Below, piece after piece: positions 768 to 50,699 of a DNA stretch of 64,000 nucleotides. Made by a program: the position numbers and the translations under genes. Below the pieces are notes generated by a model. It saw only the letters and a list, made by a program, of their open reading frames with translations, was not told the origin of the DNA and did no database searches. The first letter of the stretch is position 1. Each line of letters opens with the position of its first letter. This DNA comes from Thermosynechococcaceae cyanobacterium MS004. GTDB taxonomy: Bacteria > Cyanobacteriota > Cyanobacteriia > Thermosynechococcales > Thermosynechococcaceae. The stretch spans positions 62,001 to 126,000 of the forward strand of contig JAKRSB010000126.1 of assembly GCA_022402525.1 (NCBI GenBank), written 5' to 3'.

Positions 768-873
768 TCCCTATTCTAACCTTGCCCATATTTTCGTCTC
801 ACTAAAGCCAACCATCAGGACATCCCTGGGTAGGATAAACATAGTGCCTATGCATTCACCTAGCTAGCTGATT

Positions 874-2313
874 GTGAATCAACCCCCACCCAAAACTACC
901 CATCGCGAAGATCTTCGGGCTATTCGGTCTGTTCGGGGCGGTGGCAAGGGTGTTCACGCTTGGCTTAATGTAGGGATTCTGGCAACTGCTGATTTGATAG
1001 CCCTTGGCAGTGCCTGGAAAATTGCCGCGCAGCTTAATCAATTTTATGCCCCTATTCCCCCGCAGTTGGTGTGGTGGACTTGGCTGGGTTTACCCAGTCT
1101 CTTCTGGATTTTTGCCTGTGTCACTCTGCTGATTTTAGGCAGTGGTGGACTCTATAACCGCGCTACTGCCTGGAAAGACTATGTGCGCTCTGCACAGTTG
1201 GTGAGTCTTGCCTACTTACTGTCTTTGGTCGCCAGCTATTGCTACGACCCTAAGCTAGATGCCCCGCGATCGCTCTTTTTTAGTGCCTGGGGGCTGAGTG
1301 TTGTTTTTATCATTGGCTTTCGGCTGATTTCAACCCTACTTTTACAGCAGCTTGAGCAGCGTCAGCCCACCGTGGGCATTTTTTTAATCGCCACCGCAGA
1401 GCGTTTACCCCGTCTGTCTAAACTGCTGGAACAGCGATCGCACTACCGTATTGTGGGAGCAGCCCTGGCCTCCACCGCCAACGCCAATACCACCCTGACC
1501 TCTATCCTCAACTCCAAAGCCCAGGAAGTGATCGTCGAAGGTCTGCCCCCCACAGAGCTGGCCTCTACCCTCTATTGGCAGCTTCGACGCTGCGGCATTA
1601 CGCTCCGCCTGATTCCATCGAGTGTGGAAGTGCTACATCGTCGCGGTATTCCTGAAATTTTTGCTGGAATGCCGACCCTCCGTGCTGCACCACCCATGCT
1701 GTTGGGTCTAGATTATCGCATCAAACGCTACATCGATATTACGGCGGCAGCGCTGGGGCTATTGGTATTGGCCCCCTTTCTGATGGGCATTGCGATCGCC
1801 ATTAAACTCACCTCCCCTGGCCCAGTTTTCTACCGCCAAGAGCGCGTGGGGCTGCATGGCAAAATCTTTCAGATGTGGAAATTTCGCACCATGGTCGTTA
1901 ATGCCGAGGCTCTCCAAGCCGCCCTAGAAGCAAAAAATGAATCCCAAGACGGCATTCTGTTTAAGATCAAAGATGACCCGCGCCGCACTAAAATCGGTAG
2001 CTTTTTGCGACGCACCAGCATTGATGAACTGCCCCAGCTGATTAATGTTTTGGTCGGGCAAATGAGCCTGGTGGGGCCACGTCCCCTCCCCATCCGAGAC
2101 GTGGAGCGCTTTAACTCCTGGCACCATATCCGCCATCAGGTGCTGCCAGGGATTACGGGGCTATGGCAAATTTCAGGGCGATCGCATCTGGACGATTTCG
2201 ACCAAGCTGCCCGGCTTGATCTTTACTACATCGACAATTGGACGCTTAACCTCGATTTTGAGATTTTGGTCGAAACCCTACGGATTGTACTGTTTGCCAA
2301 CGGGGCTTACTAA
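874..2313 (+). CDS. Polyprenyl glycosylphosphotransferase (exopolysaccharide sugar transferase)
   Basis: This 479-residue membrane protein belongs to the WbaP/WcaJ-type initiating sugar transferases, which move a sugar-1-phosphate onto undecaprenyl phosphate to start exopolysaccharide or O-antigen synthesis. Hydrophobic segments fill about residues 28-160, a CoA-binding-like Rossmann region follows (about 160-270), and the catalytic bacterial sugar transferase domain takes up about residues 283-475. Visible motifs are KRYIDI with a membrane hairpin, GPVFYRQERVGLHGK, the MWKFRTM signature, RRTSIDELPQLINVL and SLVGPRPLP near the end. The start is GTG 874. The convergent O-antigen-ligase-like gene downstream could act in the same surface-polysaccharide pathway. 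Confidence 0.93.
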   Translation: MNQPPPKTTHREDLRAIRSVRGGGKGVHAWLNVGILATADLIALGSAWKIAAQLNQFYAPIPPQLVWWTWLGLPSLFWIFACVTLLILGSGGLYNRATAWKDYVRSAQLVSLAYLLSLVASYCYDPKLDAPRSLFFSAWGLSVVFIIGFRLISTLLLQQLEQRQPTVGIFLIATAERLPRLSKLLEQRSHYRIVGAALASTANANTTLTSILNSKAQEVIVEGLPPTELASTLYWQLRRCGITLRLIPSSVEVLHRRGIPEIFAGMPTLRAAPPMLLGLDYRIKRYIDITAAALGLLVLAPFLMGIAIAIKLTSPGPVFYRQERVGLHGKIFQMWKFRTMVVNAEALQAALEAKNESQDGILFKIKDDPRRTKIGSFLRRTSIDELPQLINVLVGQMSLVGPRPLPIRDVERFNSWHHIRHQVLPGITGLWQISGRSHLDDFDQAARLDLYYIDNWTLNLDFEILVETLRIVLFANGAY

Positions 2314-2336
2314 AATATCGCTATTGAAAAATACCG

Positions 2337-2903
2337 CTATTGAACCGTCAAGGTAAACCCAGGCAGGATATCTTCCCCCGATAAGGTGACTGGATAGGTC
2401 AAGCTTTCTACCGCTTGACCAGGCCGATAAATCTCGACCTGCTTGTCCTGGGGGTTAATGAGCCAGCCCAGTTGTAACCCGCTGTCGAGATATTCCTGCA
2501 TCTTGCTTTGTAAAGGCTTGAGTCGGTCGGTCTTGGACCGCAGCTCAATCACAAAATCGGGGCAGAGCGGCGGAAATTCTTCTTGTTGCTCTAGCGTCAG
2601 GCTTTGCCCGCGCTCTAGCTGAATCCACGCCACATCAGGAGAGCGATCGCCACCCCCCGGCAGACTAAAGACCGTAGAAGAACTAAAAACTTTGCTAAGG
2701 CCCGTTTGCCGATTCCAGATATTGAGGTCGGTAATATAGTCCGCCTCGCGTTCGCCACTGAGTCCACCGATGGGACTCATAATAATCAATTCTCCCGTGG
2801 GACTCCGCTCCATTGGCACATCTTTATTCGCCATACACAGGGCATAGAACTGTTCGTGGGAGAGATGGACGATGGGGTCTAAGTTGAGGGTGATGGCAGT
2901 CAT
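2337..2903 (-). CDS. Uma2 family (DUF820) putative endonuclease
   Basis: This 188-residue protein is a typical-length Uma2 member. The N-terminal THEQF-like segment (LSHEQFYAL), ERSPTGELIIMSP, SPDVAWI, PDFVIELRSKTDRL with its acidic ligands, and the MQEYLDSGLQLGWLINP tract all fit the PD-(D/E)XK-like core. It converges on the sugar transferase, with 23 bases between the two stop codons. With the gene at 147-767 it makes two divergent Uma2 subtypes around one glycosyl-transfer gene. Their physiological role is not known, and a link to the transferase is not implied. Confidence 0.9.
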   Translation of the reverse strand: MTAITLNLDPIVHLSHEQFYALCMANKDVPMERSPTGELIIMSPIGGLSGEREADYITDLNIWNRQTGLSKVFSSSTVFSLPGGGDRSPDVAWIQLERGQSLTLEQQEEFPPLCPDFVIELRSKTDRLKPLQSKMQEYLDSGLQLGWLINPQDKQVEIYRPGQAVESLTYPVTLSGEDILPGFTLTVQ

Positions 2904-2962
2904 AGAACGCCCCTTAAAATCCTGCGCTTACCCATAGCATAGGCCTATTGTCTAAGCCGGCG

Positions 2963-5776
2963 CTAAGGTTTGCGCTGGTTTGGCGCAATAGATTTCCATA
3001 ATCGCTCTCGGAAGGGTTGCAGCCCATTATCCAGTCCAGGGCTATAGCTCGGCGATGGGAGTAGTTCTGCAAAAAACTGGGTCATCGCAATATTCTCAAC
3101 GACAGGAAAGAAGTCTGTGGGCGCTGGCCCATCAATGTGGCGACTGAGGACTCCAAAGCCAGCTCGTTCTCGTGGATATTGCCGACTCGGAACCAGTTGC
3201 TGAATCCATTGATCTAAGGATTTGGCTTGATTCATACTGGTGGTCAATGCCTCTACTAACTTAGGATCGGGGAGGGCTTGACTGGCTTCTAGGACGGCCT
3301 TTTCAATCCACTGCGATCGCTGTTGGGGTTCTAGCCATGCTTTGAGGATTGGCGCACTTGGGGTGACAGGATTGTTGCGATTATTGCTGCGGGCGATCGC
3401 CAACACATCGCCACCTAGGGGCGTTCCATGCTTTCGCCACTGCCCATTCGCCTCAGCGTGTTTCCCTTGCCACCAGTACAAGCCCCCCAGACATTGACGT
3501 AAATAAGGGGTGAGCGGATTCTGCTCAGAACGGTTTTGGAGCAATTGCAGATAGATTTGCTCCACCGCGCCAAGAACCTGCGGATAAATCCCCTGATACT
3601 GCGTAGAGCGCCAAAGCGGACTGGTTAACCAAATTGGATCTCGGACAATTTCTAAGGCCAGCGCCTGTACCCCCCAATCCACCTTATTTTGCGCCAGCAA
3701 ACTGAGACCTAAACTATGAAACGCGCCCCGCTTTGCGGGCACCAACTGAGTCGATTTGAGAAAGGAAGTTGTGGCTTCAGCAAACTGACGATTGAAAAAC
3801 TGTAGCCACCCTAAACTACTGGTGCCTGCTTCTTGATAGGGGGAGGCCTGGGTATTGCGTTGAAAAAAGTCCTGGCTTTGACTTAAGCGAGCTTGACTGG
3901 TTTGGCCACCCTCACTTTGTGCGTTTTCACTTTGGGTATTGGCTAGGTTCCAGCCCAACTGATAGGAGTAGTAAGGCTCCCAGGGGGCAAGCTGATGAGC
4001 TTGTTCTAAGTATGTTGTAAATGGCTCAATTTGTTTTTGGCTAAGGGCGGCAAAGCCTAGGCTAGAGAGCTGCCAAGCCCGCAGAATGGGCGTCATCCAG
4101 ACCCCAACGACTAACAACAGCCCGCATAACCCCCAACAAATCCATGCCACCTTCAATCGTTTTGGAAATTGTCGAGCTTCATCTGCTGGAATATAGTCGC
4201 GCAAGAGAGAGAGTAGACATACGCCGTAGAGGATGAGCGTCCCGCTGATGCCGATAATATCCAACTGGTAGTCCGTGAGGCTGACAATGCCATACCCGAT
4301 TAGCCCTGCAGATAAGCTCACGCTCAGGAGATAGTCGCGCTCCAATGCCGGGGGCTGCAATTCTTTTGCAGAAGAATCTTTTGAAGAGAGATCTTTTGAA
4401 GAGAGAGCTTGCGATCGCTGCTCTCCCAGTCTGCGCCCCAACCTAACCCCCCAATAGCCTAGCCAGCCTAAGAGTCCCAACATAAGAGCAATCCCCACTC
4501 CCCCGAGTTCAGCCCAAATTTGAGCCGGGGTACTGTGGAGCTGGTACACCAGTTCTGCTTCCCGGCCCGCCCAGGCCGGACGGTACTCTTGATAAAGTAG
4601 CGGTACACCCCCCAGACCAACGCCAAAAACAGGATGCTCAAGCCCCATGGCCCACCCTGTGACATTGGTAATCAGTCGAAACGCAGTTTCTCCCCCCGCA
4701 CCATCTAGGGTGGAGGCAGTGAACAGCGATCGCAGTCGATTATTGGCCAGGATAATGCCCAGCAAGGCAGCAACGGAACCCAATCCCACCATCCACCGAA
4801 AGCGAGGGGTGGTAGCCGTTCTCATGGGCAGGTGTCCCAGGAGCAACAATCCGCCCGTGAGAACGACTGCGGCCACCCCTAACCACCCCCCACGGGAACT
4901 GGTGGTGTATAGATCGACCAGCCCTAGCAAAATTCCCCCACCCCAAAGCCATCTCCATCGAGGCTGAGCGCTCACGCTTAACGCAAGCAATAGGGGCAAA
5001 CTTAAGACTAAATAACCCGCCACATAGTTTTGATGCCCAATGGGTGCCCAGTTCCGGAGTTCTAAAACTGAAAAGTCATAGAACACACTGAGCCCCGCTG
5101 CCCTGAGGCTTGCCAGCCGACCCATCTCTGGGAAAAAAGTTTGACTACTCCAAAGCCCAAGGCTCACGACCATAAACGCAAGGCTCAAACTGCCCTGGAG
5201 TACCAGGAGCTGATGACGTCGAGCAGGGCTACGACACCAGGCATTTAGGGTATAGAAGGCGGCGATCGCGCCCAAGGCTGCCCAACTATACCAACGCGCC
5301 TGCTGCGGGAAGGGAGCCAGCACCATTGATCCCACCAGCCCCACGAGGGCTAAAGCAATACCGTAATCCAGACCGTAGCCCAACCCGTTCAGACGCTTCT
5401 GACGCCATCCTTCTCGCAGTAGCCAGAGCCATGGCAACAGAAGTGCAACTTGACCGATCAGCACCCAAGGCCAAGACACCACTAGACTGCTGCTATCCGG
5501 CAGTAGGGTGAAGAGAATGTAAAACCCCACCCCAAGGAGTCCAAAAATATCCTTGCGGCGATCTGTAGACGGTGGGCTGGCCAAAGAACTCACTCCATGA
5601 AGGGGGATGGCAGGTTTTGAAGATGAAATAGCGGAGGTGGAATAGCAGAGGCAGCGCGATCGCCATGAAGCCTGTTCGTATGCACACTGAATGCCTCCGC
5701 AGTGAGGATACCCGATTCTTTGGGATAACCGACTACTGGGAGGTGACACCCCTCTGCAAGCCCACGATAAACTCAC
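2963..5776 (-). CDS. O-antigen ligase-like membrane protein with C-terminal TPR-like region
   Basis: The longest frame encodes 937 residues. From about residue 75 a run of some ten membrane segments carries the Wzy_C/O-antigen-ligase signature, including the LGLVDLYTTSSRGGWLG stretch and a large extracytoplasmic loop (about 350-420). After the last membrane pair (about 540-570) comes a soluble region with helical, tetratricopeptide-like repeats such as the EPYYSYQLGWNLA and AFHSLGLSLLAQNK segments. Family members join or polymerise lipid-linked glycans in the periplasm. The first 60 or so residues are Ser/Cys-rich and look non-native; GTG at 5593 (VSSLASPP) is a plausible true start. It could serve the same polysaccharide pathway as the transferase at 874-2313. 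Confidence 0.85.
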   Translation of the reverse strand: MSLSWACRGVSPPSSRLSQRIGYPHCGGIQCAYEQASWRSRCLCYSTSAISSSKPAIPLHGVSSLASPPSTDRRKDIFGLLGVGFYILFTLLPDSSSLVVSWPWVLIGQVALLLPWLWLLREGWRQKRLNGLGYGLDYGIALALVGLVGSMVLAPFPQQARWYSWAALGAIAAFYTLNAWCRSPARRHQLLVLQGSLSLAFMVVSLGLWSSQTFFPEMGRLASLRAAGLSVFYDFSVLELRNWAPIGHQNYVAGYLVLSLPLLLALSVSAQPRWRWLWGGGILLGLVDLYTTSSRGGWLGVAAVVLTGGLLLLGHLPMRTATTPRFRWMVGLGSVAALLGIILANNRLRSLFTASTLDGAGGETAFRLITNVTGWAMGLEHPVFGVGLGGVPLLYQEYRPAWAGREAELVYQLHSTPAQIWAELGGVGIALMLGLLGWLGYWGVRLGRRLGEQRSQALSSKDLSSKDSSAKELQPPALERDYLLSVSLSAGLIGYGIVSLTDYQLDIIGISGTLILYGVCLLSLLRDYIPADEARQFPKRLKVAWICWGLCGLLLVVGVWMTPILRAWQLSSLGFAALSQKQIEPFTTYLEQAHQLAPWEPYYSYQLGWNLANTQSENAQSEGGQTSQARLSQSQDFFQRNTQASPYQEAGTSSLGWLQFFNRQFAEATTSFLKSTQLVPAKRGAFHSLGLSLLAQNKVDWGVQALALEIVRDPIWLTSPLWRSTQYQGIYPQVLGAVEQIYLQLLQNRSEQNPLTPYLRQCLGGLYWWQGKHAEANGQWRKHGTPLGGDVLAIARSNNRNNPVTPSAPILKAWLEPQQRSQWIEKAVLEASQALPDPKLVEALTTSMNQAKSLDQWIQQLVPSRQYPRERAGFGVLSRHIDGPAPTDFFPVVENIAMTQFFAELLPSPSYSPGLDNGLQPFRERLWKSIAPNQRKP

Positions 5777-47417: not shown

Positions 47418-47806
47418 GGGGCTGTAACGGCTTCGACGTTTTAGTGAACGTAGCCTCGTGATTCAGGCCGAGAGTGAGTTACCTCTCGTAAATCAATGAC
47501 TCAAACAAAACGTAAATGCGAACAACATCGTTCCTTTTGCTCGTAAGACAGTACTAGCTACTGCCTAAAAACCTCTCCGGTTTTTGAGCGTTTATAGTTT
47601 GACTCCGTTAAGGACTATAGACCTAACCCCCAACGGACTGCTCTAACGATTTATCTCTGGTTAGATCGTTAGCTAAGACAATACTAGAGAATCCTATCGT
47701 CGGGGATAATTGACGATCCTCGCTTCTAGGGTATAGAAGCTAAGCCTGTGAACGAATGGGGAGCTAATAACTAGGGCGGACACGGGTTCGACTCCCGTCA
47801 GCTCCA
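47418..47806 (+). ncRNA. ssrA: tmRNA
   Basis: The 389-base RNA starts GGGGCTGTAACGGCTTCGAC and ends GTTCGACTCCCGTCAGCTCC plus A. The 5' GGGGCTG pairs with the 3' CAGCTCC as a tRNA-like acceptor, and the T-arm GGTTCGA is present. CCA is not encoded. The reading frame resumes at GCG 47518 and runs to TAA 47666-equivalent position 47566-47568, giving a tag of ANNIVPFARKTVLATA (16 residues, after the alanine from the charged end). It is of cyanobacterial type. The RNA releases stalled ribosomes and tags the products for degradation. Confidence 0.97.
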
Positions 47807-47809
47807 CTT
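47796..47809. other. Putative attachment site attL (tmRNA 3' end)
   Basis: CGTCAGCTCCACTT overlaps the 3' end of ssrA. The same 14 bases recur at 50446-50459. The tmRNA 3' end is a well-known integration target of tyrosine-recombinase islands. Confidence 0.6.
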
Positions 47810-47844
47810 ATAGACAAATCAATAGCATCCAAGGATGTTTACTT

Positions 47845-47868
47845 AACCCGCTCTAGCAGCGGGTTTTT
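47845..47868 (+). terminator. Rho-independent terminator after ssrA
   Basis: Stem AACCCGC (47845-47851) and GCGGGTT (47859-47865) with a seven-base loop, followed by T residues. Confidence 0.8.
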
Positions 47869-48023
47869 GCTGTGCGGTGTTCATGTCGCTCTAAATTTTG
47901 GGAACGGATAAAATAATATGGGAACCATCCCAGTAGGGGAAAATTTATTAGAATTATCCTAGTTTAGTGACTGAAATGTTAACCTGTTGTATAAAAACTG
48001 AGGTTTGAGCCTGATAATCATAA

Positions 48024-48608
48024 GTGCTCTATTTTGAATTTAATACTGTGAACTTCAATGAATTAATTCGTTCTGAAATTTCAAGAGTGTCTCTAGCTCA
48101 TAGGGTAGATCCTTCTGTGCTAGAAGATTTAGCTCAGTTTGTAATCGATAACTATCGTAAGAAGCCACCTAAGCCTAAGGCGATTAAGCCACCTAAAGTT
48201 AAACGACTAACATTAGCGCAAATAAAGGCTGCGGTATTGGATCACTTTAAGGTGCTTGATGCCAAGGCATTGAAGCAGTCTGCCGAGTTTGTAATGGCAA
48301 CTAATGGAATGGACATTAAATTGACTGGCAAGGAGGGCTGGGAAACACTCTATCGCAAATTTATTGGTATCTTGCCAGGGGAAGACGGGGAGGCTGGAGA
48401 GGGATGTATTAATGGCATCAACATCTTTAAGTACACGATGCCTTGGCGAATCTTTGGATTGGATCCAAAGGTTTCGACAACGGAAGATGTAAAAACAGCT
48501 TATCGAAATCTGAGTAAGGTCTACCATCCAGATGTTCCAGGAACAGGCGATGCTCGGATTTTTGAACGACTGACAGTGTTCTATGAAAGCTTGACGGAGA
48601 AGGTTTAG
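48024..48608 (+). CDS. J-domain protein in the ssrA island
   Basis: This 194-residue protein starts at GTG 48024. The N-terminal part (about 1-90) is helical and Lys/Pro-rich. The last 55 residues form a J-domain: WRIFGLDPKVSTTEDVKTAYRNLSKVYHPDVPG, with the HPD motif at 168-170 that stimulates Hsp70 ATPase. It has no Gly/Phe or zinc region, so it is not a classical DnaJ. The stop TAG is directly followed by the GTG start of the HNH-like gene, so translation is coupled. It may recruit DnaK to act on its partner; that is inference. Confidence 0.85.
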   Translation: MLYFEFNTVNFNELIRSEISRVSLAHRVDPSVLEDLAQFVIDNYRKKPPKPKAIKPPKVKRLTLAQIKAAVLDHFKVLDAKALKQSAEFVMATNGMDIKLTGKEGWETLYRKFIGILPGEDGEAGEGCINGINIFKYTMPWRIFGLDPKVSTTEDVKTAYRNLSKVYHPDVPGTGDARIFERLTVFYESLTEKV

Positions 48609-49661
48609 GTGGCTGAAATCTACATTACATCTAAAAAGCTCATTGAGACATTGAAGATTACCGATCATGAACTGATTGAAATTGAAACGTTTTTTGACAG
48701 TATTCCTGATGACCAGTGGGACTTAAAGGCGGGGACTGATTACAAGGTAGTTTCTGGTAATGGTCTCAGAGAGTACACATGCTCTGGAGCATTTTCCATT
48801 GCCGATTATCTCCAGTTCAAGCGGCAGACTGAAAGAGGCTGGTTTAGGAACCTCATTGATACTTTAATCCGAGCAATTAAGGGAGATATACGAAAAGCAT
48901 TTGTCAAGCAGCAGATGCTGAATAACAGCTCATCCTTGGTACAGAACAATAACCGCTATTTTCTGTCTAGTGCGGATGTTATTTCTATCTTTAAGACTCG
49001 TTCAGACTATCTCAAAAAGATGTTTGAGGAAGCGAAAAAAGATGATAAGACTGCGCTGATTAAAAATGAGGACTATGTAGAGCTTCCAGATAAAGGGTTT
49101 TACTATTCGTTGTCTGGGATGGTTAAGTTGGGACAGGTGTTTTCTGCCAACATCATCCGCCGCAATCGTAAGGATTGGTGTAGTGATGTCAGTGAAGTAG
49201 TAAACCCTTGCATGGCCGACATCTTAAAGCAGATTGATGCTCGGAACAAAGCTATAGATAAAGCGGTTAAGCAGGCCAAGACTAGAGCCGATAAAAGATG
49301 CCAGGTTACGGGAGCTAAAGGCAATCAAGTTACCAAAATTCCAATGGCTGGACATCACCTGTATTCCAAAGCTGAATATCCGCATCTGGTGGACAGCGTT
49401 GATAACATCATCTGCGTTACCGTCGAGGTTCATGATCATTTTCATCAGAGTATGGGTGGCTATCACAAACCCTGTACTTTGGATGACTTTGAAAAGTTCG
49501 TGAAGCAGTATTATCCAGAAAGCAACGTGTTTATCTGGCTACAACAGCAACGCTTAAGACTGGGAAATCAGCAGCCCATTAAAGCGAGAGAACGCCATGT
49601 GCTGCATTTACCTTGGCCTATTCCTCAATTGTTGCTGCCACCTGCATCAACCAATTCATAA
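48609..49661 (+). CDS. HNH-like protein with long N-terminal region, in the ssrA island
   Basis: This 350-residue protein starts at GTG 48609. The N-terminal 220 residues are helical and match nothing recognised. The C-terminal part (about 225-300) has an HNH-like arrangement: CQVTG (C231), GHHLYS (His249-250), NII (Asn266) and HDHFH (His275, 277, 279). The basic flank ARADKR resembles other nucleases. It is coupled to the J-domain gene. A DNA-cutting activity is likely, and an anti-phage role is possible but unproven. The end of the frame (after about 320) is Pro-rich. Confidence 0.68.
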   Translation: MAEIYITSKKLIETLKITDHELIEIETFFDSIPDDQWDLKAGTDYKVVSGNGLREYTCSGAFSIADYLQFKRQTERGWFRNLIDTLIRAIKGDIRKAFVKQQMLNNSSSLVQNNNRYFLSSADVISIFKTRSDYLKKMFEEAKKDDKTALIKNEDYVELPDKGFYYSLSGMVKLGQVFSANIIRRNRKDWCSDVSEVVNPCMADILKQIDARNKAIDKAVKQAKTRADKRCQVTGAKGNQVTKIPMAGHHLYSKAEYPHLVDSVDNIICVTVEVHDHFHQSMGGYHKPCTLDDFEKFVKQYYPESNVFIWLQQQRLRLGNQQPIKARERHVLHLPWPIPQLLLPPASTNS

Positions 49662-49717
49662 GCCAGTTGGAAAAAGGATACAATTGCTGCATATATTTAA
49701 TTCCAGCTCACTGAAGT

Positions 49718-49915
49718 CTGAAAAAATTTAAACGCTATTGGGATAAATCTCAGGAAAATGAGATCAGTCGTGACCTGTCGAAGAAGGCGATCGCCGCTCA
49801 ACTCCTCGTCGATGCGTATAAGGCTGCTAGGCCATATCCCAACATGGCAGCATGGCTGCGCTGCGTCATCACCGAAGCGGCACAGCGTGATCTGATGAAA
49901 GGAGATGAGACTTAA
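49718..49915 (+). CDS. Short frame without a standard start, upstream of hicA
   Basis: A frame ending at TAA 49913-49915 reads KKFKRYWDKSQENEISRDLSKKAIAAQLL and then AWLRCVITEAAQRDLMKGDE, which looks like a real helical protein. The only possible start is CTG 49718; no ATG, GTG or TTG precedes the sequence. It may be a remnant or use a rare start. It ends three bases before hicA. Confidence 0.4.
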   Translation: MKKFKRYWDKSQENEISRDLSKKAIAAQLLVDAYKAARPYPNMAAWLRCVITEAAQRDLMKGDET

Positions 49916-49918
49916 CGC

Positions 49919-50131
49919 ATGGTGAAGTCGGTCAGAGAGCTAAAAGCCATGTTGCTAAAAGCTGGATTTAGTGAATTTTCAGCTAAAGGCAGTCATACAA
50001 AATGGCTACATCCTTTGTTTTTAGGGCGAGTAATTTTATCTGGGAAAGATAGCAACGATGCCAAGCCATACCAGGTGAGAGAAGTAATGGACGCGATCAA
50101 ACAAATTAAAGATAAGGAGCTTGAAGAATGA
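49919..50131 (+). CDS. hicA: HicA-type mRNA interferase toxin
   Basis: This 70-residue basic protein fits HicA, an RNase with a double-stranded RNA-binding-like fold. The expected GSHTKWLHP holds the catalytic His, after SVRELKAMLLKAGFSEFSAK. An AGGAGAT ribosome site lies upstream of ATG 49919. It overlaps hicB by four bases. It is the likely stabiliser of the island. Confidence 0.92.
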   Translation: MVKSVRELKAMLLKAGFSEFSAKGSHTKWLHPLFLGRVILSGKDSNDAKPYQVREVMDAIKQIKDKELEE

Positions 50132-50337
50132 CCCCACTTCACTATGAAATGGTCATCACTTGGTCAGAGGAAGATAGCTGTTATCTAGTTCACCTGCCAG
50201 CCTTCCCAGAGCAACACTATCGAACTCATGGGGACACTTACGAAGAAGCGGCACGGAACGGGAAAGAAGTTTTAGAACTGCTGCTAGAAAATGATGGTCT
50301 ACCCTATCTACAACCGAAAGCGGTTAAAGTCGCCTAA
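50128..50337 (+). CDS. hicB: HicB-type antitoxin, short form
   Basis: This 69-residue protein is the N-terminal HicB domain alone (YEMVITWSEEDSCYLVHLPAFPEQHYRTHGDTYEEAARNG), a ferredoxin-like fold that binds HicA. It lacks the C-terminal DNA-binding domain seen in longer HicB proteins, as is common in cyanobacteria. How the pair is then regulated is not clear. Confidence 0.92.
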   Translation: MTPLHYEMVITWSEEDSCYLVHLPAFPEQHYRTHGDTYEEAARNGKEVLELLLENDGLPYLQPKAVKVA

Positions 50338-50445
50338 CCGCTAGGATCCCAGCAACACACATGAGGGGTATAGTTGGGGGCATCTTAAAGATGTCCTAAA
50401 TTGAAGTGCTTGCTGTGTAGCTATCTCAAAGCTTTTGTCTATGGT

Positions 50446-50459
50446 CGTCAGCTCCACTT
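50446..50459. other. Putative attachment site attR
   Basis: CGTCAGCTCCACTT repeats the 3' end of ssrA (47796-47809) 2.65 kb away. The identity ends at the next base on each side. Confidence 0.6.
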
Positions 50460-50490
50460 TGGATCCTTAAGTGATATCCATAAGTATCTG

Positions 50491-50517
50491 TCAAACCCTC
50501 TATTACGGAGGGTTTGA
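50491..50517. terminator. Perfect inverted repeat, possible terminator
   Basis: TCAAACCCTC (50491-50500) and GAGGGTTTGA (50508-50517) form a 10-base stem with a seven-base loop. It lies just past attR and could have been the ancestral end of ssrA transcription. There is no long T run. Confidence 0.5.
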
Positions 50518-50699
50518 CCTATGGAGGAGAGTGCATTTCATAAGGCTGAGACTCTTGGTTCCATAATGTGGGATGAGCAGCCTAGCCCCCTGGATATATC
50601 CCCTGGATACATTAAGGCTTGCATTTCGGAGCGAAATCGATCTTGAGGACTCCTTCTGCATCAGCTTAGTATGCGTCAGCTTAAAAGATTCCCCGTCCT

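Follow-up and report, generated by a model that had tools for sequence, protein, structure and literature searches.

The tmRNA gene ssrA is followed in this genome by 2.65 kb of AT-rich DNA that ends in a copy of the last bases of ssrA. The question is whether this segment is a genomic island without an integrase, and from what kind of element it would derive. The window was the whole stretch of DNA analysed, 64,000 nucleotides from Thermosynechococcaceae cyanobacterium MS004, and an initial annotation had proposed a satellite or decayed island at 47796-50459. The target gene and the repeats are listed below by window position.

47418-47809, plus strand: ssrA (tmRNA), the intact target gene (ARAGORN; Rfam RF00023, 136 bits)
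47796-47809, plus strand: core repeat copy 1, attL side (exact 14-mer)
50446-50459, plus strand: core repeat copy 2, attR of the island and probably also attL of an older relic (exact 14-mer)

The tmRNA starts at 47418 and its 3' end was called at 47807 or 47809. Its last 14 bases, CGTCAGCTCCACTT, are found again without a mismatch at 50446-50459, in the same strand. The repeat reported in the initial annotation is therefore present, and these are the only two exact copies in the whole 4.93-Mb genome. In shuffled windows 0.40 matches to the 14-mer are expected at two or fewer mismatches, and the chance of a same-strand match within 5 kb is about 2e-5. The core is only 14 bp long, which counts against an island. 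The layout is that of a tDNA island: the intact tmRNA gene marks one end, and a displaced 3' fragment with matching orientation marks the other. Other tDNAs of the genome were surveyed to 16 kb downstream, with some contigs ending earlier, and among those covered a clear 3'-end repeat was found only at ssrA and at a tRNA-Val gene.

The bases that precede the second core were compared with ssrA loci in two other genera of the same family, Aphanocapsa sp. GSE-SYN-MK-11-07L (G008) and Petrachloros mirabilis ULC683 (G010).

50426-50445, plus strand: element right end (ending in TCTATGGT), by similarity to the right ends in G008 and G010

A second copy of the ssrA end lies at +824 from ssrA in G008 and at +1536 in G010, and the small genes inside both islands are quite different from those in the window. 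The same 3' end with different cargo, which the initial annotation had suggested looking for in relatives, was thus found. Window positions 50426-50458 are 91% identical to the G008 right end (E 3e-6), and TCTATGG also occurs in G010. All three genomes have TCTATGG[T/C] before the second core, with TCTATGG[T/C]CGTCAGCTCCA as a common element-side right end, and the bases that follow CCA match each genome's own ssrA (CT or TCAT). Site-specific integration gives this pattern, in which a right end brought by the element adjoins the core. The right ends of G008 and G035 agree at 17 of 20 positions (0 of 2,000 shuffles) and those of the window and G035 at 13 of 20 (32 of 2,000). The match between the window and G010 is modest when taken alone (66 of 2,000). 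A search of 390 genomes with the right-end pattern at two mismatches was dropped due to too many chance matches. The exact 19-mer recovered the Aphanocapsa and Petrachloros genomes from the species collection together with three unrelated matches without a nearby tmRNA, about the number expected by chance. No match was found in viral contigs.

The sequence on the other side, directly 3' of ssrA, was also similar to that of relatives.

47810-47872, plus strand: element left end with putative arm-site repeats and a terminator-like hairpin (47845-47865), by sequence similarity

This flank resembles the ssrA flanks of G001, G002, G008, G010 and G017 (z 9-21) and the sequence after a tRNA-Lys gene in G001 (z 9.0), a member of the same genus. 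At the tRNA-Lys gene the left end leads into the N-terminus of an integrase with an Arm-DNA-bind_3 domain. About 230 bp, reaching the first integrase codons, are nearly identical at ssrA and tRNA-Lys in G001. Similarity to the integrase gene stops after about 25 codons in the ssrA copy. In G035 the left end after tRNA-Ala closely resembles the one in the ssrA island of G010. The presence of the left end at ssrA, tRNA-Lys and tRNA-Ala indicates that it travels with the element together with the terminator-like hairpin. Judged from these similarities, the sequence directly 3' of ssrA is the left end of the element. The window lacks the second part of this left end, and the G001 and G002 genomes are incomplete drafts.

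No integrase-like ORF was found between the repeats, in agreement with the initial annotation, and no stub was kept. No integration or transfer genes were present among the ORFs or family matches of the island. The initial annotation had also suggested a genome search for a tyrosine recombinase suited to ssrA. No Arm-DNA-bind_3 integrase was found in the genomes of the three ssrA carriers (the window's own, G008 and G010), but other tyrosine recombinases were present in the window's genome. One of these genes is located some 700 bp past a tRNA-Val gene (G000:C131:116300-133500), where a search of 16 kb gave no 3'-end repeat.

Full-length relatives were identified in other genomes. They encode a P4-type integrase, which consists of Arm-DNA-bind_3, Phage_int_M and Phage_integrase domains. 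An island of 9.0 kb occupies tRNA-Ala in G035, and one of 11.6 kb occupies tRNA-Ser in G004. Both are enclosed by 17-18-bp repeats of the tRNA 3' end, and in both the P4-type integrase gene adjoins the tRNA gene while an RHH-like gene is found close to the opposite end. The G004 island also encodes a DUF5906 protein, HicA and RusA. Intact P4-type integrases lie directly 3' of the tmRNA gene in G015, G108 and G088; the attR of the G088 island was not found within about 38 kb. A 22-codon integrase stub remains in the G010 ssrA island, and a tRNA-Val mini-island of G010 holds a 98-amino-acid stub of a different arm type (Arm-DNA-bind_2). Given these stubs and the full-length relatives, the integrase side of the window island would have been lost by internal deletion, leaving the right-end genes and both att sites. 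The G015 contig with the ssrA integrase (G015:C49) also encodes a sigma-factor-like protein, along with a pair of small membrane proteins resembling TrbC and TrbD by eye, and that element is possibly a conjugative relative.

The genes between the repeats are as follows.

48024-48608, plus strand: J-domain protein, 194 amino acids, cargo (Pfam DnaJ 1.5e-6; HPD invariant in 13 orthologues)
48609-49661, plus strand: HNH-like protein, 350 amino acids, cargo and partner of the J-domain gene (PHROG HNH E=0.008; invariant Cys/His/Asn set; pairing)
49718-49915, plus strand: damaged small RHH-like gene without a normal start codon (41% identical to the RHH-like gene in the ssrA island of G010, E 5e-4)
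49919-50131, plus strand: HicA toxin (Pfam HicA_toxin 1.5e-9)
50128-50337, plus strand: HicB-like antitoxin (PHROG HicB-like 1.7e-8; below the Pfam cut-off)

The island has a GC content of 42.7% compared to 51.9% for the window, placing it in the lowest 0.33% of 2.6-kb stretches. One HIP1 site was seen where 3.7 were expected. The AT-richness described in the initial annotation was therefore confirmed; the shortage of HIP1 sites has the direction it described but is not significant alone (Poisson ~0.11). Its J-domain and HicAB calls were upheld by the matches listed above. For its HNH-like gene the family models are weak, but C231, H249, H250, N266, H275 and H279 are invariant in 13 orthologues. 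The protein had no match above the Pfam or NCBIfam cut-off, none in phage records and no relative among solved structures. The J-domain and HNH genes were adjacent in all 12 relatives examined and form a conserved two-gene unit in many cyanobacteria. In most of the 12 the pair has ordinary gene surroundings without a nearby tRNA gene. No PADLOC defence family was matched by the island cargo, and PADLOC, Pfam, NCBIfam and solved structures gave no indication of what the pair does. As a guess, the HNH protein may be a nuclease under the control of its J-domain partner. The pair is also found downstream of tRNA-Gln in G008 (G008:C12, 3636-5842), with a 12-bp repeat of the tRNA-Gln end and flank (AGTTATCTCATC) just past the HNH stop codon; this locus may be another tDNA mini-island.

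The small RHH-like gene seen in the ssrA islands of G008 and G010 has multiple copies in the family, and 10 of its 30 fetched loci have an upstream tRNA or tmRNA gene that points the same way. Mini-islands with tRNA 3' repeats and without a P4-type integrase were found at tRNA-Val in the window's own genome and in G010, and at two tRNA-Val genes and one tRNA-Ala gene in G001. The own-genome example, at tRNA-Val(cac) (G000:C40:50000-66000, 860-3150), has a 40-bp repeat of the tRNA 3' end at +2.17 kb, lacks an integrase and carries RHH-like and coiled-coil genes. Its left end is common to mini-islands in G001 and G010. A tRNA-Phe gene of the same genome (G000:C59:31500-48700) has a 19-bp partial copy 4.2 kb downstream with small unrelated ORFs between, a possible third decayed island.

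The sequence past the second core was compared with element left ends as well.

50460-50519, plus strand: left-end-like sequence with an 11-bp hairpin (50490-50518), a probable relic of an older element, by similarity to element left ends

The hairpin that the initial annotation had placed just outside attR is present, with a perfect 11-bp stem, but the region around it looks like the left end of an element. The 60 bases that follow 50459 are similar to the ssrA flank of G008 (z 9.7) and to the left end of the tRNA-Lys element of G001 (z 9.4). The second repeat is therefore more likely to be the point where a newer island meets an older relic. Tandem accretion probably describes the site better than a plain attR followed by chromosome, and the simplest reading of the sequence is that the left end of an older element was displaced when the present island entered. 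The tRNA-Ala locus of G001 (G001:C394) has a tandem layout like that at the window ssrA, of another element family, with a mini-island and then another element left end past the right repeat. Near relatives showed either a left-end-like flank or differing synteny at ssrA, and no empty ssrA site was found among them. Synteny beyond the island is not conserved among the relatives compared. The SelO gene was tried as a marker of the empty site and rejected, being conserved but without shared adjoining sequence in G001.

Taken together, the ends and the relatives make it quite probable that 47796-50459 is a deletion derivative of a tDNA-targeting element with a P4-type integrase, with an older left end beyond the second core. 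The element core would have recombined with the last bases of ssrA. The gene would have stayed intact and, according to the left-end comparisons, gained an element-borne 3' flank with a terminator-like hairpin. The integrase and replication genes would later have been lost through internal deletion. Both att sites, the right-end genes (the damaged RHH-like gene and HicAB) and the J-domain/HNH pair would be what remains, and the older left end past the second core would make ssrA a probable tandem accretion site. The other tyrosine recombinases in the genome count against this explanation, as a different enzyme might have acted.

Three other explanations were weighed against it. The outer flank is similar to the ssrA flanks of relatives, as it would be if the sequence beyond the second repeat were the native ssrA flank and terminator, with a single insertion and an element left end once derived from such a flank. 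This is rather unlikely, since the flanks of the relatives are themselves element left ends that also occur at tRNA-Lys and tRNA-Ala, the ssrA flanks without a left end (G003, G006, G009 and G011) show no similarity, and the tandem layout recurs at tRNA-Ala in G001. It is far less credible that the repeat arose by chance or by a non-mobile duplication beside an ordinary chromosomal gene cluster. The repeat is short and the J-domain/HNH pair is chromosomal elsewhere, but the same right end lies at the same place in two other genera, the repeat is rare, and nearly all other tDNAs of the genome lack a 3' repeat.

The island could also be a true non-autonomous satellite, one of a set of mini-islands that persist without an integrase and depend on those of other elements for movement in trans. 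At ssrA, tRNA-Val and tRNA-Ala there are at least eight mini-islands, 0.8-2.7 kb long, that have both repeats but lack an integrase. Most carry the same small right-end genes, their right ends are preserved, and the marker gene is common to two element families with different left ends. The integrase stubs in G010 and G001 point instead to decay, the three ssrA carriers lack a matching integrase, and the marker gene is damaged in the window; a satellite is accordingly judged unlikely. It is doubtful, too, that this cyanobacterial family maintains miniature integrase-less tDNA islands (0.8-2.7 kb) as a family of their own, recognisable by a small RHH-like gene and a coiled-coil gene close to the right end and mobilised in trans by two or more tyrosine integrase classes, with the ssrA island as a member that gained the J-domain/HNH pair and HicAB. 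Between the two origins that the initial annotation left side by side, decay is better supported than a satellite because integrase stubs persist in sister islands.

The first proposal is partly supported. An integrase-less island at ssrA is borne out by relatives that have the same ends with different cargo, but the second repeat is probably not a plain boundary between attR and chromosome. Neither of the observations named beforehand as contrary to an island was found, namely relatives with these genes and no 14-base repeat, or the repeat without cargo boundaries. This is a real att-flanked island of an already known kind, for which the ends and the likely integrase family are now identified.

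The closest named concept is the cis-mobilizable element (CIME), which has lost its integration and transfer genes and kept attL and attR (PMC5704250). The ssrA island would work like one, as it keeps both att sites, has lost integration genes and probably stands in tandem with a relic of another element. It differs in that the full relatives examined have more the look of small islands, equipped for replication and recombination, than of conjugative elements. The island is probably stationary now, since no P4-type integrase was found in the genome, and it might move, as a CIME does, if such an integrase entered the cell. Tandem ssrA islands are known in Dehalococcoides, where the recombinase is a serine enzyme and the repeat is 20 bp long (PMC3146451); here the integrase family is P4-type tyrosine and the repeat is 14 bp long. 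Islander finds tDNA islands in general and needs an integrase gene inside (PMC4383910). The window island similarly has a regenerated target gene and a displaced 3' fragment marking the other end, but it lacks an integrase, so Islander would miss it. Tycheposons and phage satellites, which are mentioned in PMC11389934, are a further comparison. The full relatives resemble them in lying at tRNA genes and in encoding an integrase, RusA, a small HTH protein and a large protein that is DUF5906 or similar. The window island has none of those genes, and no packaging or capsid gene was identified in it. Family matches gave no packaging or replication hallmark genes in its cargo; RusA and DUF5906 are present in a full relative.

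Remnants of this kind escape island finders for which an integrase is obligatory. In this case a second left-end copy, at another tRNA gene, made it possible to link the ends to a specific integrase family. The locus is also an example of an ssrA gene whose 3' flank and terminator-like hairpin would now be element-derived. The related genomes have the same ends with and without an integrase at ssrA and at several tRNA genes. They form a testable set that bears on whether integrase-less islands are dead relics or passengers moved by helpers.
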